From contig NZ_JAFBBY010000001.1 in the NCBI RefSeq assembly GCF_016907515.1, forward strand, positions 4,526,001 to 4,590,000: 64,000 nucleotides of DNA, written 5' to 3'. This document shows positions 3,651-64,000 of the stretch, in pieces. Each line of letters begins with the position of its first letter. Position 1 is the first letter of the stretch. Made by a program: the position numbers and the translations under genes. The notes beneath the pieces were generated by a model. That model ran no database searches and was not told where the DNA came from. It saw nothing but the letters and a program-made list of their open reading frames with translations. This stretch comes from Nocardioides nitrophenolicus (GTDB lineage Bacteria > Actinomycetota > Actinomycetes > Propionibacteriales > Nocardioidaceae).

Positions 3651-3670
3651 GCTGGCGGCGGGCGGCTGCA

Positions 3671-3696
3671 GGAATCGCCGGTCGACCGGCGATTCC
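3671..3696. repeat. Perfect 26-bp palindrome downstream of ndk
   Basis: The sequence GGAATCGCCGGTC followed directly by its exact reverse complement, 21 bp after the ndk stop. It has no loop, so it is as likely to be a protein-binding or cruciform site as an RNA hairpin. Confidence 0.7.
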
Positions 3697-3698
3697 GG

Positions 3699-3730
3699 CA
3701 CTTGTCGGCCATTGCAACGCCCGACAAGTG
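3699..3730 (+). terminator. Hairpin downstream of ndk, probable terminator
   Basis: CACTTGTCGG, a 12-nt loop, then CCGACAAGTG gives a 10-bp perfect stem, followed by ACAGTTTTG with a short T run. It starts 3 bp after the 26-bp palindrome. The rest of the 299-bp ndk-mreB gap, up to 3949, holds a possible mreB -10 (TACGCT, 3822-3827) and nothing else that stands out. Confidence 0.55.
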
Positions 3731-3949
3731 ACAGTTTTGCCCGCCCAGTGTGACCCCTGTGACTCCTGAGACCCGGCGCGCCGCACCGGCGTGCCTGCGC
3801 GGCTGAGCCGCCGACGTTCCTTACGCTCGCAAGCGGAGACCGTCGGATCGTGCGCTCGGCAGTCTCCCCGGCGCTCCATCGGCCGGCTTCCCCGACGCGC
3901 ACGGACGGACCTGCCGCTCGGCCGGTCCGGTGACGTCTTGCGAGGAAGC

Positions 3950-47003: not shown

Positions 47004-48566
47004 ATGGCCGTGCCCACCTTCGTCGACCGCGTGGTCCTGTCCGTGTCCGCCGGCCGCGGCGGCAACGGCGTCGCGTCCGTGCACCGCGAGAAGTTCAAGC
47101 CGCTCGGCGGTCCCGACGGTGGCAACGGCGGTCCGGGTGGCTCGGTCATCCTGCGTGTCGACCCCGACGTGACGACGCTGCTCGACTACCACCACAGCCC
47201 GCGCCGCAAGGCAGAGCACGGCGGCCACGGCGCCGGTGACCGGCGCAACGGATCCCACGGCGCCGACCTGGTGCTCGCCGTACCCGCGGGCACGGTCGTC
47301 AAGCAGCGCAACGGCGAGATGATCGCCGACCTGGTGACGCCCGGCGCCGAGCTGGTGGTCGCCCAGGGCGGCCGCGGCGGCCTCGGCAACGCCGCGCTGG
47401 CGTCCAAGACCCGCAAGGCGCCCGGGTTCGCGCTGCTGGGCGAGCCGGGTGACGAGCTGGAGGTGGTCCTCGAGCTCAAGGTGGTCGCCGACGTCGGCCT
47501 GGTCGGCTACCCCAGCGCCGGCAAGTCCAGCCTGATCGCCGCGATCTCGCGGGCCCGGCCGAAGATCGCCGACTACCCGTTCACCACGCTGGTCCCCAAT
47601 CTCGGCGTGGTCACCGCCGGCGAGACCGTGTTCACCGTCGCCGACGTGCCCGGCCTGATCGAGGGAGCGGCCGAGGGCCGCGGGCTGGGCCACGACTTCC
47701 TGCGCCACATCGAGCGCTGCGCGGCGATCGTCCACGTCCTCGACACCGCCACCCTCGAGCCGGGCCGCAACCCGCTCGACGACCTCGACGTGATCGAGGA
47801 CGAGCTGCGCCGCTACGGCGGCCTCGACGACCGGCCGCGCCTGGTCGCGCTCAACAAGGTGGACGTGCCCGACGGCCGCGGCATCGCCGAGCTGGTCGTC
47901 GAGGAGCTGCGCGAGCGCGGCCTGCGGGTCTTCGAGATCTCCGCGGTGTCCGGCGAGGGCACCCGCGAGCTGATCTACGCGATGGCCGAGATCGTGCTCG
48001 AGGCCCGCCGCGCCAAGGCGACCGAGATCCCGGCGCGGATCGTCGTACGCCCCAAGGCGGTCGACGACGACGGCTTCACCGTCAAGCGCACCGGCGCCGG
48101 CTGGCGGGTGCGGGGGGCGAAGCCCGAGCGCTGGGTGCGCCAGACCGACTTCAGCAACGACGAGGCGGTCGGCTACCTCGCCGACCGGCTCAACCGGCTC
48201 GGCGTCGAGACCAAGCTGCTGGAGCTCGGCGCGGAGGAGGGCGACGCCGTCCTCATCGGGCCGACCGAGAACGCCGTCGTCTTCGACTTCAAGCCCGGCA
48301 TCGACGCCGGCGCCGAGAACCTGTCGCGCCGTGGCGAGGACGACCGCTTCCACGCCGAGCGGCCCGCCGCGGCCCGGCGTCGCGAGATCCAGGAGCACAT
48401 GGACGAGCGGGCCGAGGGCGAGACCCGCGCAGACGTCGCGCGCCGCATCGACCAGCCGGAGGCCTACGGTCCGAGCTCCTTCGAGATCGGCTCCGAGGAG
48501 GACCCCGACGCGAAGCCGGCGCCGAGCTTCGACGACGACTGGCTGGAGGACGACCCCGGTGAGTGA
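47004..48566 (+). CDS. obg: GTPase Obg/CgtA
   Basis: 520 aa. Obg glycine-rich N-domain ([26 protein letters not shown]...), G domain with G1 [11 protein letters not shown]3 DVPGLIEGA and G4 NKVD, then the OCT domain (about 345-425), which is typical of Gram-positive Obg, and an acidic, less ordered C-terminus. It takes part in 50S assembly and stress control. The start lies 27 nt after the rpmA terminator and 83 nt after the rpmA stop. Its last 8 nt overlap the proB start. Confidence 0.97.
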
Positions 48567-49677
48567 GCGGGCCCTGGTGACCGGGGCGCGCCGGATCGTG
48601 GTCAAGGTCGGCTCGTCGTCGCTGACCACGGCCGCGGGCGGCATCGCTCCGGAGCGGATGAGTGCCCTGGTCGACGTCCTCGCCGCCGCCCGGGCGCGGG
48701 GCGCGGAGGTGGTCCTGGTGTCCTCCGGCGCGATCGCCGCCGGCCTGGCTCCGCTGGGCCTGCGCAGGCGCCCGCGCGGCCTGGCCGCCCAGCAGGCCGC
48801 CGCCAGCGTCGGCCAGGGGCTGCTGGTGCACCGCTACACCGAGGAGCTCGCCCGCCACGGCCTGATCGCCGGGCAGGTGCTGCTCACGCTCGACGACGTC
48901 ACCCGGCGCTCCCACTACCGCAACGCCCACCAGACCTTCGCCCAGCTCCTCGAGCTCGGTGTGATCCCGATCGTCAACGAGAACGACACGGTCGCGACCA
49001 CCGAGATCCGGTTCGGCGACAACGACCGGCTGGCGGCCCTGGTCGCCCACCTGGTCCATGCCGACCTGCTGGTGCTCCTGTCCGACGTCGACGGCCTGTA
49101 CGACGGCCCGCCCAGCCGACCCGGCGCGCGGCTGATCCCCGACGTGCACGGCTCGGCCGACCTCGCCGACGTCGTCGTCGGCTCCGTGGGCGCCGCCGGG
49201 GTCGGCACCGGCGGCATGGTGACCAAGGTCGACGCCGCCGCGATCGCCACCGGCTCCGGCATCCCGGTGGTGCTGACCTCCGCGGACCGTGCGGGGGAGG
49301 CGCTGGCGGGGAAGCCGGTCGGGACGCTGTTCCATCCCACCGGCAAGCGCCGGCCCACCCGGCTGCTCTGGCTGCGCCACGCCACCGAGGCCAAGGGCGC
49401 ACTGGTGCTCGACGCCGGTGCGGTCCGCGCGGTGGTCGAGCGACGGGCCTCGCTCCTCGCGGCGGGTGTGACCGGCGTCCAGGGCGACTTCAGCGCGGGC
49501 GACCCGGTCGACCTGCTCGACCCCGACGGAGCCGTCGTGGCCCGCGGCCTGGTCAACTTCGACGCCGCCGAGGTGCCGAACCTGCTCGGGCGCTCGTCGA
49601 AGGAACTCAAGCGCGAGCTCGGCGCGGCGTACGAGCGCGAGATCATCCACCGCGACGACCTGGTGGTGCTCACCTGA
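48559..49677 (+). CDS. proB: Glutamate 5-kinase
   Basis: 372 aa. Amino-acid kinase domain: [13 protein letters not shown] near the start, [43 protein letters not shown], and [17 protein letters not shown] domain fills the last 95 residues ([31 protein letters not shown]). It phosphorylates glutamate, the first step of proline synthesis. GTG 48559 overlaps the end of obg by 8 nt and uses GGAGG inside obg. Adjacent proA is not present; the repeat region follows instead. Confidence 0.95.
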
Positions 49678-49734
49678 CACCCGCGGTCGTCGGGTGGCCC
49701 GGCGCTGGGTGGGGGGAGCGGATGGGTCTGCTTC

Positions 49735-49852
49735 GCGCTGTAACACGCAGTTCGCTGCTGTTCCGGACCCGGGACGTCGCGAAACGGTGTCTGTACGGGT
49801 CCGGGACATACGACCGAGGTCGGGTAGGCCGGCGGACAACGTGTTACAGCGC
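49735..49852. repeat. 118-bp repeat with terminal inverted repeats, copy A
   Basis: Begins GCGCTGTAACACG and ends with its exact reverse complement CGTGTTACAGCGC (13-bp perfect ends). Inside are GGACCC/GGGTCC and CGACC-GAG-GTCG inverted pairs. Copy B, 154 bp downstream, differs at about five positions. No open frame of note; both copies occupy the 369-bp gap between proB and the monooxygenase gene. Confidence 0.85.
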
Positions 49853-49888
49853 CTCCCGACGCATCCATCCGGTGGGCGGGTCCGTTCG

Positions 49889-50006
49889 GCGCTGTAACAC
49901 GCAGTTCGCTGCTGTTCCGGACCCAGGACGTCGCGAAACGGTGTCCGTACGGGTCCGGGACATACGACCGACGTCCGGTAGGCCGGCGGACAACGTGTTA
50001 CAGCGG
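49889..50006. repeat. 118-bp repeat with terminal inverted repeats, copy B
   Basis: Same orientation and length as copy A, 36 bp after its end. Ends GCGCTGTAACACG and CGTGTTACAGCG. The short flank before the left end (GGGTCCGTTCG) resembles the flank of copy A (GGGTCTGCTTCG), so the true period may be 154 bp. The related third copy near 63.9 kb is in the opposite orientation. Confidence 0.85.
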
Positions 50007-50046
50007 TTCCCGACCAGCCCCAGCCCACCCCACCACGAGGCCCTGG

Positions 50047-51141
50047 TCACCCTCGCAGCGCGCGCCGCACCCATCGGTCGGGCACGAGCGCCGAGAGCCG
50101 GTGTACGACGGCCGGTGCGTCGACGAGCAGGCTGGCCGCGCGGGAGGCCCGGACCACGCGTTCGGTGGGGCGGCGGCGGTGCCGCTCGAACGCCGCGAAG
50201 GCGGCTGCCGGCCGACCTGCCGGCGTCCCCGGTACGCCGAGCAGCCCGGCCAGCAGTGCCGCGTCGACCAGCGCCTGACCGCCGCCCTGGCCGAGGTGGG
50301 GGCGCATCGGGTGCGCGGCGTCGCCCAGCACCACCACCGGGCCGTCGGTCCAGCGGCGCAGCCGCTCGCGGTCGAGGACGTCGACCCGGCTGACCGTCGC
50401 CGGGTCGGTCGCGGCCAGCACCCGGGCGACCGGGTCCGGCCAGTCCCGGAACGCCCGGGCCAGGTGGGCGAGCTGGTCCGGCGCGGTGCCGTGGCCGGTG
50501 GCGCCGGCGGGCTCGCGGGCGGTGGCGAACCAGTAGGCCAGGTCCGCGCCCAGCGGCACCACCCCGAGCTCCTGACGCTCACCCCACAGCTGCACTGCGG
50601 TCAGTCCCGGGGCGGTGGTCAGGCCGCGCCAGGCGGGATAGCCGGCGTACCGCTCCCGCAGGCCGGGCTGCAGGGTGCGCGCCACCCGCGACCGGAAGCC
50701 GTCGGCGCCGACCAGGGCCGCGGCGTCGAGGGGCCTGGTGGACGTCTGCACCCGGACGCCCGCCCCGGCTCGCTGGTAGCCGGTGACCGCGCACCCGAAG
50801 GTCACGCTGCCCGGCGCCAGGCCGGCGTACAGCAGCTCGACGAGCACCCCGCGGCGGACGGCGAGCAGCGGCAGGTCGAGCGTGCGGAGCACCCGGCCGG
50901 AGCGGGTGCGGACCGTCCCGGGGCCGACGGGGTGGCCGGCGGCGCGCACGGCGGCGCCGATGCCGATCCGGTCCAGCGCGGCCAGGGCCTGCGGCCAGAG
51001 GGTGATCGCGCCGCCGGTGCTGCCGAGGGCCGGTCGCTCGTCGAGCAGCCGGCACGACCACGCCGAGCCGGCGTGCCGCAGCGCGGCCGCGAGGGCGAGC
51101 CCGGCGATGCCGGCCCCGGCGATCACCAGCTCCTCGCTCAC
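50047..51141 (-). CDS. FAD-dependent monooxygenase (PF01494 type)
   Basis: 364 aa. FAD-binding GAGIAGLALAAALRHAG near the N-terminus (GxGxxG), the DG motif region ALVGADGFRSRVARTL, and GDAAHPMRPHLGQGGGQALVDA for the FAD ribityl and pyrophosphate. This is the p-hydroxybenzoate-hydroxylase fold; relatives hydroxylate aromatic compounds. The substrate is unknown. GTG 51141 is the first start after the upstream gene and leaves GAGIAG at residue 8; no strong ribosome binding site. It is 26 bp from ppk2, on the same strand, and ends 41 bp from repeat copy B. Confidence 0.88.
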   Translation of the reverse strand: MSEELVIAGAGIAGLALAAALRHAGSAWSCRLLDERPALGSTGGAITLWPQALAALDRIGIGAAVRAAGHPVGPGTVRTRSGRVLRTLDLPLLAVRRGVLVELLYAGLAPGSVTFGCAVTGYQRAGAGVRVQTSTRPLDAAALVGADGFRSRVARTLQPGLRERYAGYPAWRGLTTAPGLTAVQLWGERQELGVVPLGADLAYWFATAREPAGATGHGTAPDQLAHLARAFRDWPDPVARVLAATDPATVSRVDVLDRERLRRWTDGPVVVLGDAAHPMRPHLGQGGGQALVDAALLAGLLGVPGTPAGRPAAAFAAFERHRRRPTERVVRASRAASLLVDAPAVVHRLSALVPDRWVRRALRG

Positions 51142-63851: not shown

Positions 63852-63872
63852 CGGGGGCGGCTGGCCGCCGGC

Positions 63873-63982
63873 TGTAACACGTTGTCCGCGTCACTGGTCG
63901 CCACTTGTCAGCGCGTAGCGTCGGCGACACGCCGTACCTGCCGCTGACACCTGGCGGGTAGCCGGGTGGACAGCGTGTTACA
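63873..63982. repeat. 110-bp repeat with terminal inverted repeats, copy C
   Basis: Ends TGTAACACG and CGTGTTACA. The left end GCTGTAACACGTTGTCCGC (from 63871) matches the reverse complement of the right end of copies A and B, so the copy is inverted. Interior differs but is also self-complementary (TGTCAGCG at 63906-63913, CGCTGACA at 63942-63949). It lies 22 bp after the hydrolase gene. Confidence 0.75.
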
Positions 63983-64000
63983 TCGGCAGAGCGAGCCCCG

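Follow-up and report, generated by a model that had tools for sequence, protein, structure and literature searches.

REP-like palindromes are common bacterial repeats, and the RAYTs are, to our knowledge, the only enzyme family tied to them so far. I-Bth0305I is a homing endonuclease of the EDxHD family. Several published systems provide points of comparison for the repeats described here. The commonest inter-REP spacings in P. fluorescens are 71 and 110 bp, according to a portion of PMC3116915. CGTC REPs are reported in part of another REP paper (PMC3733652) to have no dedicated transposase, and the words Nocardioides, Actinobacteria and TGTAAC have 0 occurrences in the main text of that paper. 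The insertion sequence ISPpu9 of P. putida inserts in REPs, as stated in an extract of PMC8450116. According to passages of PMC3985639, AbiEi represses its own promoter and binds there to inverted repeats that begin with TGTTGC, and a section of PMC6083498 names EDxHD as a homing endonuclease family.

The window analysed here is a 64,000-nucleotide stretch of the Nocardioides nitrophenolicus genome, in which the following features are of immediate concern.

49735..49852, + strand: copy 1 of a 118-bp palindromic element of subfamily A, full length, with ends CTGTAACACG...CGTGTTACAG at a spacing of 102
49889..50006, + strand: copy 2 of the 118-bp palindromic element of subfamily A, 113/118 identical to copy 1
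49735..49747, + strand: left conserved end of copy 1, the outer part of an arm of about 34 bp
49840..49852, - strand: right conserved end of copy 1, from end comparison
49889..49901, + strand: left conserved end of copy 2, from end comparison
49994..50006, - strand: right conserved end of copy 2, from end comparison
49724..50014, + strand: tandem duplication holding copies 1 and 2 (2 x 137 nt, 154-bp spacing, 93% identical, from a repeat search of the window)
48559..49677, + strand: proB, with AA_kinase and PUA domains (Pfam), the convergent left neighbour, given as context
50047..51141, - strand: FAD-binding monooxygenase-like gene with a FAD_binding_3 domain (Pfam), the convergent right neighbour, given as context
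63869..63986, + strand: an element of subfamily B with the same ends and a different core, elsewhere in the window, found in a scan with the B model

The initial annotation had described two 118-bp copies with about five differences at the positions of copies 1 and 2, and this is exactly what the alignment gives. The ends of the pair are GCGCTGTAACACG and CGTGTTACAGCGC, with one altered end base in copy 2. The inverted ends that had been noticed are real, but alignment of the copies puts the conserved arm at about 34 bp and not at 13 bp. In the same way, the pair does lie between both genes but fills the gap only approximately, occupying 272 bp of about 369 bp. The 137-nt direct repeat takes in some of the flank, and the window pair therefore arose by local tandem duplication. 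The further suggestion that the near-identity of the pair reflects recent duplication holds up as well, given that the repeat runs into the flank and that the median identity to the window copy among 59 subfamily-A copies is 75%.

With 40 of its 103 candidates scored, a search of the 5.8-Mb host genome with the 118-bp sequence gave at least 89 match rows at E<=0.001, a number far from chance. There are 74 full-length copies in the host loci examined, and the spacing from CTGTAACACG to CGTGTTACAG is 102 bp in 63 of these and 101 bp in the other 11. The copies fall into two subfamilies with ends in common and different cores: A has 60 copies and a further one that carries an internal duplication, while 13 belong to B. 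Model A2 was built on 49 of the 60 subfamily-A copies and model A3 on 13 of the 14 others; a 117-bp copy of subfamily A at 2896799, initially grouped with B, was reassigned for the models. Subfamily B has 19 sites above 60 bits in the model scan. Eight sites of the model scan lie outside the list of 74, bringing the host total to at least 82, or about 0.17% of the genome, and an evenly spaced 400-kb sample of the host contained five elements. Clusters with two or three copies account for 14 of 59. The reading of the window pair as a REP-type or non-autonomous mobile element is supported by these results: at least 82 copies with inverted ends were found, nearly all of them intergenic, and the element is absent from the orthologous junction of relatives in which the two genes are still neighbours. 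Terminal inverted repeats are present in the elements; no target-site duplication was apparent in 30 element flanks read by eye, and the element-free junctions are those of other species, too diverged to show one. Extra single ends also occur in tandem at exactly 40 bp beside full elements, to the left or right (L031, L032, L033, L035, L037, L045, L049, L051), and single-end tandem spacings of 20 and 30-31 bp are seen too (L034, L061, L062).

The position of the elements relative to genes was assessed with a codon-usage gene predictor, which placed 33 copies at convergent, 34 at tandem and five at divergent junctions. These 72 of the 74 copies are intergenic; of the other two, one has a 16-bp overlap with a predicted gene and one is without a predicted neighbour on one side. 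Taking 59 cluster representatives (3088047 and 3088723 counted separately, 4032865 omitted, gene contexts compiled by hand), convergent junctions are in excess, at 26/59 versus 60/382 sampled junctions (p=2.5e-6), while divergent junctions number 4/59 versus 56/382 (p=0.07). At tandem junctions the elements lie at random with respect to gene direction (17 versus 17). A place at gene ends would be explained if the element were a structured RNA, its hairpin serving as a terminator, 3'-end stabiliser or ncRNA, and the very stable folds predicted for window copies 1 and 2 on the + strand (z -7.7 and -6.4) would agree with this, as would the bias to convergent gene ends and an excess of pairing at a few columns in the short elements of one relative. 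However, in the 59 subfamily-A copies used for a covariation test (60 less copy 2419682, removed for its internal 20-bp duplication) the variable stem columns pair mostly at the rate expected from column composition, for instance 76% observed versus 79% expected at 18-101, 61 versus 69 at 22-97 and 59 versus 71 at 25-94. A weak excess is confined to 14-105 (51 versus 38) and 15-104 (53 versus 43). Together with the even split of orientations at tandem junctions and the absence of any Rfam match in the window, this leaves the structured-RNA option of the initial annotation highly improbable. Subfamily A is not a maintained RNA hairpin; terminator action as a side-effect is possible. Both arms look like independent copies of one motif of about 34 bp, CTGTAACACGNNGTYCGCYGCTCTWCCSGACCC, an arrangement that would be expected for two protein-binding sites in dyad symmetry. 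Protein binding, which had been offered as another option, is favoured by the fixed element length and helical-turn spacing, and the sites are best described as putative.

Comparison with relatives shows the window site to be lineage-specific. In 29 relative proB loci, the best of 98 genomes, proB and the monooxygenase gene are both present in seven. The two genes abut in G083, their alignments lie 35-56 bp apart in G081, G014 and G042, the gap measures 235 bp and holds a different repeat in G051, and it exceeds 500 bp in G064 and G025. Neither TGTAACAC nor GTGTTACA is found in any of the 29 loci; relatives that keep the gene order thus lack the element, and the window pair is lineage-specific. 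The G051 gap (L267) contains several copies of another short repeat, TGACACTTCGGC..., which suggests that a further family also occupies sites of this kind.

Open reading frames between neighbouring elements include two host paralogues of about 350 aa that are 58% identical to each other. Each is bordered by elements of a single subfamily.

4131699-4132715 (genome coordinates): AbiEi-nuclease paralogue with subfamily-A elements on both sides, from ORF reading
4033090-4034148 (genome coordinates): AbiEi-nuclease paralogue with subfamily-B elements on both sides, from ORF reading

The encoded protein joins an AbiEi_4/AbiEi-type winged-helix antitoxin fold to a C-terminal Vsr/homing-endonuclease-like nuclease domain, and its homologues are usually annotated as 'type IV toxin-antitoxin system AbiEi family antitoxin domain-containing'. 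In a confident model, residues at the expected nuclease active site, acidic residues included, are conserved. The partner protein is a predicted DNA-binding and probably DNA-cutting one. A single-protein search revealed three further, distant host homologues (28-29% identical), and the host genome has seven profile matches in total. All three distant homologues (L133, L134 and L135) adjoin other repeats. The palindromes of L134 form a dispersed family: two sampled stretches hold copies, and so does the window, as follows.

3667..3734, + strand: a copy of a different palindrome family, made of two adjacent palindromes, TGCAGGAATCGCC... and ACTTGTCGG...; this family flanks the distant AbiEi-nuclease homologue at genome position 5418479

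The L133 palindrome had no second copy in the host sequence examined. Several copies of the L135 repeat lie beside its distant homologue, and parts of it are found elsewhere in the host (L042, L086, L089, L093).

The pairing of gene and palindrome extends through the genus. The subfamily A model has matches in 14 of 98 genus genomes and the protein search in 93. The homologue of one genome of the genus (G067, L144) matches an N. nematodiphilus locus at 100% identity over 337 residues, from which the genus is taken to be Nocardioides. Five non-host genomes carry a homologue of at least 57% identity (G034, G056, G033, G086, G081); an element lies beside the gene in all five, and on both sides in G056, G033 and G081 among the matches listed. 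At homologues of 40-50% identity the palindromes are mostly shorter, with unchanged outer hexamers, TGTAAC...GTTACA, and the lengths are quantised (70-72, 90 and 109-110 bp) in steps of about two helical turns. A palindrome score of at least 14 in both flanks was obtained at 18/34 homologue loci versus 1/80 control genes, and a score of at least 10 at 25/34 versus 17/80, all controls being drawn from the host genome. In a set of 37 GTDB-collection loci (titled Nocardioides in 34 cases, Pimelobacter and Mumia in one case each, and an unverified 'Bacillus' in the last, with a few truncated flanks), a TGTAAC-type palindrome, defined by up to one mismatch per hexamer, is present upstream at 32, downstream at 30 and on both sides at 28. 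Short-type palindromes occur in 38/98 genus genomes, with 1-31 copies each and three or more in 32, and the control pattern occurs in none of the 98. Elements are found in 42/65 genomes with a close protein (best E<=1e-50) versus 6/33 without; a genome was scored as positive, in a tally compiled by hand, with at least one short-type match or at least two subfamily-A-model matches, both strands of one site counting as two.

Protein and arm distances are correlated (Mantel r=0.54, 0/500 permutations), with values of 0.55 for residues 1-70, 0.44 for residues 71-190 and 0.375 for the rest. This test omits eight of 71 homologue loci (L133, L134, L135, L149, L150, L198, L199 and L201); 62 of the remaining 63 lie within 500 bp of a TGTAAC-type palindrome, and the distances were taken from 61 distinct proteins. 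The regional values fit, short of proof, recognition of the ends by the winged helix. In one genome, G047 (L202-L220), 11 of 19 palindromes examined have a long flank in common and sit inside a larger repeat of about 300 bp, which may be a mobile unit of its own with the palindrome as cargo.

A gene bordered by palindromes could also be read in regulatory terms alone. The AbiEi-like protein would then be a self-regulating nuclease, for defence or another role, with the palindromes as its operators. The dispersed copies would in that case not be mobilised units but decoys, a regulon, or something left behind by gene duplication and hitchhiking. Autorepression by AbiEi through inverted repeats (in part of PMC3985639) speaks for such an arrangement, as do the conserved position of the flanking copies and an upstream palindrome within 800 bp of the gene at 32/37 loci. 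However, the downstream copy is nearly as frequent, and the preference for convergent junctions and the small number of divergent sites make most dispersed copies poor promoter sites. The window copies, moreover, are absent from the orthologous junction of relatives. We consider this purely regulatory account unlikely.

Beyond the genus, the family profile has matches in 217/296 class genomes and 99/114 genera. At 19 loci of other genera, a palindrome score of at least 14 was reached in 15/36 inner flanks versus 0/34 outer windows; by locus, this corresponds to six with both sides, nine with at least one side and 10 with neither. The palindromes at these loci differ in sequence from the TGTAAC type. 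The flanking palindrome of G291 recurs at three sites in 200 kb and at none in a control genome, while that of G125, a weak case, has one site in 200 kb against two partial matches in the control. Such a broad distribution, along with the several PADLOC AbiEi models matched by all four homologues tested, might point to a system serving the host in anti-phage defence or chromosome maintenance, with chromosomal palindromes keeping hold of the nuclease until foreign DNA frees or redirects it. Against this, no AbiEii toxin is found among 10 neighbour genes at five loci (one of the 10 being without a Pfam match), so the loci scanned are not a two-gene, bicistronic AbiE system, and the patchy, species-specific element families look selfish. 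A host-serving role seems scarcely likely at all.

The elements are themselves a target for another mobile element. An IS256-type element (409-aa Transposase_mut, PF00872) has four intact, identical copies in the host (L048:1841-3234, L057 (L101), L099 and L100), three inside 118-bp elements and the fourth inside a 93% relative of the IS itself. Two of the three have a clear 8-bp target duplication and one an imperfect one. As the elements make up only about 0.17% of the genome, the target preference of the IS is strong (P about 2e-8 if insertions were random). These insertions also account for intervals of about 1.5 kb between matching ends, each being an IS256-type element within a 118-bp copy, and this bears on whether the repeats are a classical MITE, with a transposase from one of the known families acting on inverted ends of 13 to 34 bp (CTGTAACACGNNGTYCGC) and the AbiEi-nuclease gene as an unrelated passenger. 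The inverted ends and many copies are those of a MITE, but the host loci examined contain no autonomous element with matching ends, and the Y1/HUH transposase profile (PF01797) has no match in the host genome, compared with matches in 5/14 control genomes. A MITE would also leave the gene-palindrome pairing across many genomes unexplained, and we regard it as quite improbable.

Taken together, the dispersed intergenic copies, quantised inverted ends, flanking of each gene by its own subfamily, correlated divergence, conserved active site and lineage-specific window site make it probable, on sequence evidence, that the elements are an intragenomic population of non-coding palindromic repeats whose spread is aided by a cognate AbiEi winged-helix/nuclease gene. 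Because AbiEi represses its own promoter through inverted repeats, we propose that dimers of the partner protein bind both TGTAAC ends in a similar manner, and that the upstream element copy would be the operator of the AbiEi-nuclease gene. The nuclease may then cut at or near the elements, and repair could copy or duplicate them. Through cutting and repair of this kind, which recall the spread of homing endonucleases, the elements would multiply in a REPIN-like manner and form tandem pairs, and their excess at convergent gene ends would follow from the tolerance of such sites for insertions.

These results suggest that actinobacteria have a kind of mobile repeat system that had not been recognised before. 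No report of an AbiEi-nuclease combined with REPIN-like palindromes was found in those parts of the open-access literature that were searched, which is not proof of novelty. We lean slightly towards a broader reading as well, namely that Actinomycetes harbour a class of selfish (or domesticated) elements in which an AbiEi antitoxin-nuclease fusion recognises and propagates its own operator palindromes, forming REPIN-like populations without a transposase. Several such pairs may coexist per genome (here A, B and at least one more family), and many 'AbiEi family antitoxin' proteins would be enzymes of this type and not antitoxins. If an unrelated enzyme joins RAYT in this role, an operator plus a nuclease would be shown to be a possible origin of repeat populations, and toxin-antitoxin regulators, homing endonucleases and repeat evolution would be linked. 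The 'antitoxin' annotation in wide use might then be a misnomer for the actual function, and a genus of soil bacteria would offer a directly testable gene-repeat pair.

Of the known systems, several can be set beside this one. The AbiE type IV toxin-antitoxin system has the same AbiEi-type winged-helix antitoxin fold; however, the protein here carries a fused C-terminal nuclease domain, the neighbours scanned at five loci include no AbiEii, and the operator-like palindromes are dispersed over the genome. Vsr/EDxHD homing endonucleases such as I-Bth0305I resemble the nuclease domain in predicted fold and conserved acidic residues, but the scanned neighbours here are ordinary chromosomal genes instead of those of introns or phages, the module for recognition resembles AbiEi, and the repeats are short, many-copy palindromes. 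GTAG- and CGTC-tagged REPs are likewise short palindromes dispersed between genes, often as dimers, whereas the units here are longer and have no GTAG or CGTC tag. ISPpu9 sits in REPs as the host IS256-type element sits in the 118-bp elements; the latter belongs to the Transposase_mut family, and ISPpu9 is likened to it by target only. The closest parallel is with REPINs and RAYTs, which share dispersed intergenic palindromic doublets in inverted orientation, a cognate gene flanked by repeats (both close host paralogues, and both sides at 28/37 loci), a separate gene for each of the several repeat classes in a genome, and lineage-specific families. The spacings of 71 and 110 bp given for P. 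fluorescens in the portion of PMC3116915 cited above are numerically near the 70-72 and 109-110 bp found here. In contrast to that system, there is no Y1 transposase, the enzyme having an AbiEi fold and a Vsr/homing-endonuclease-like nuclease; the ends lack a GTAG tag, being CTGTAACACG, TGTAAC...GTTACA; and single ends appear, by eye, without a hairpin of their own, with little covariation in subfamily A. We set the system apart as new in kind because its lifestyle is REPIN-like but its enzyme and ends are unrelated to RAYT and REP; with greater weight on lifestyle, it would count as a REPIN/RAYT variant.
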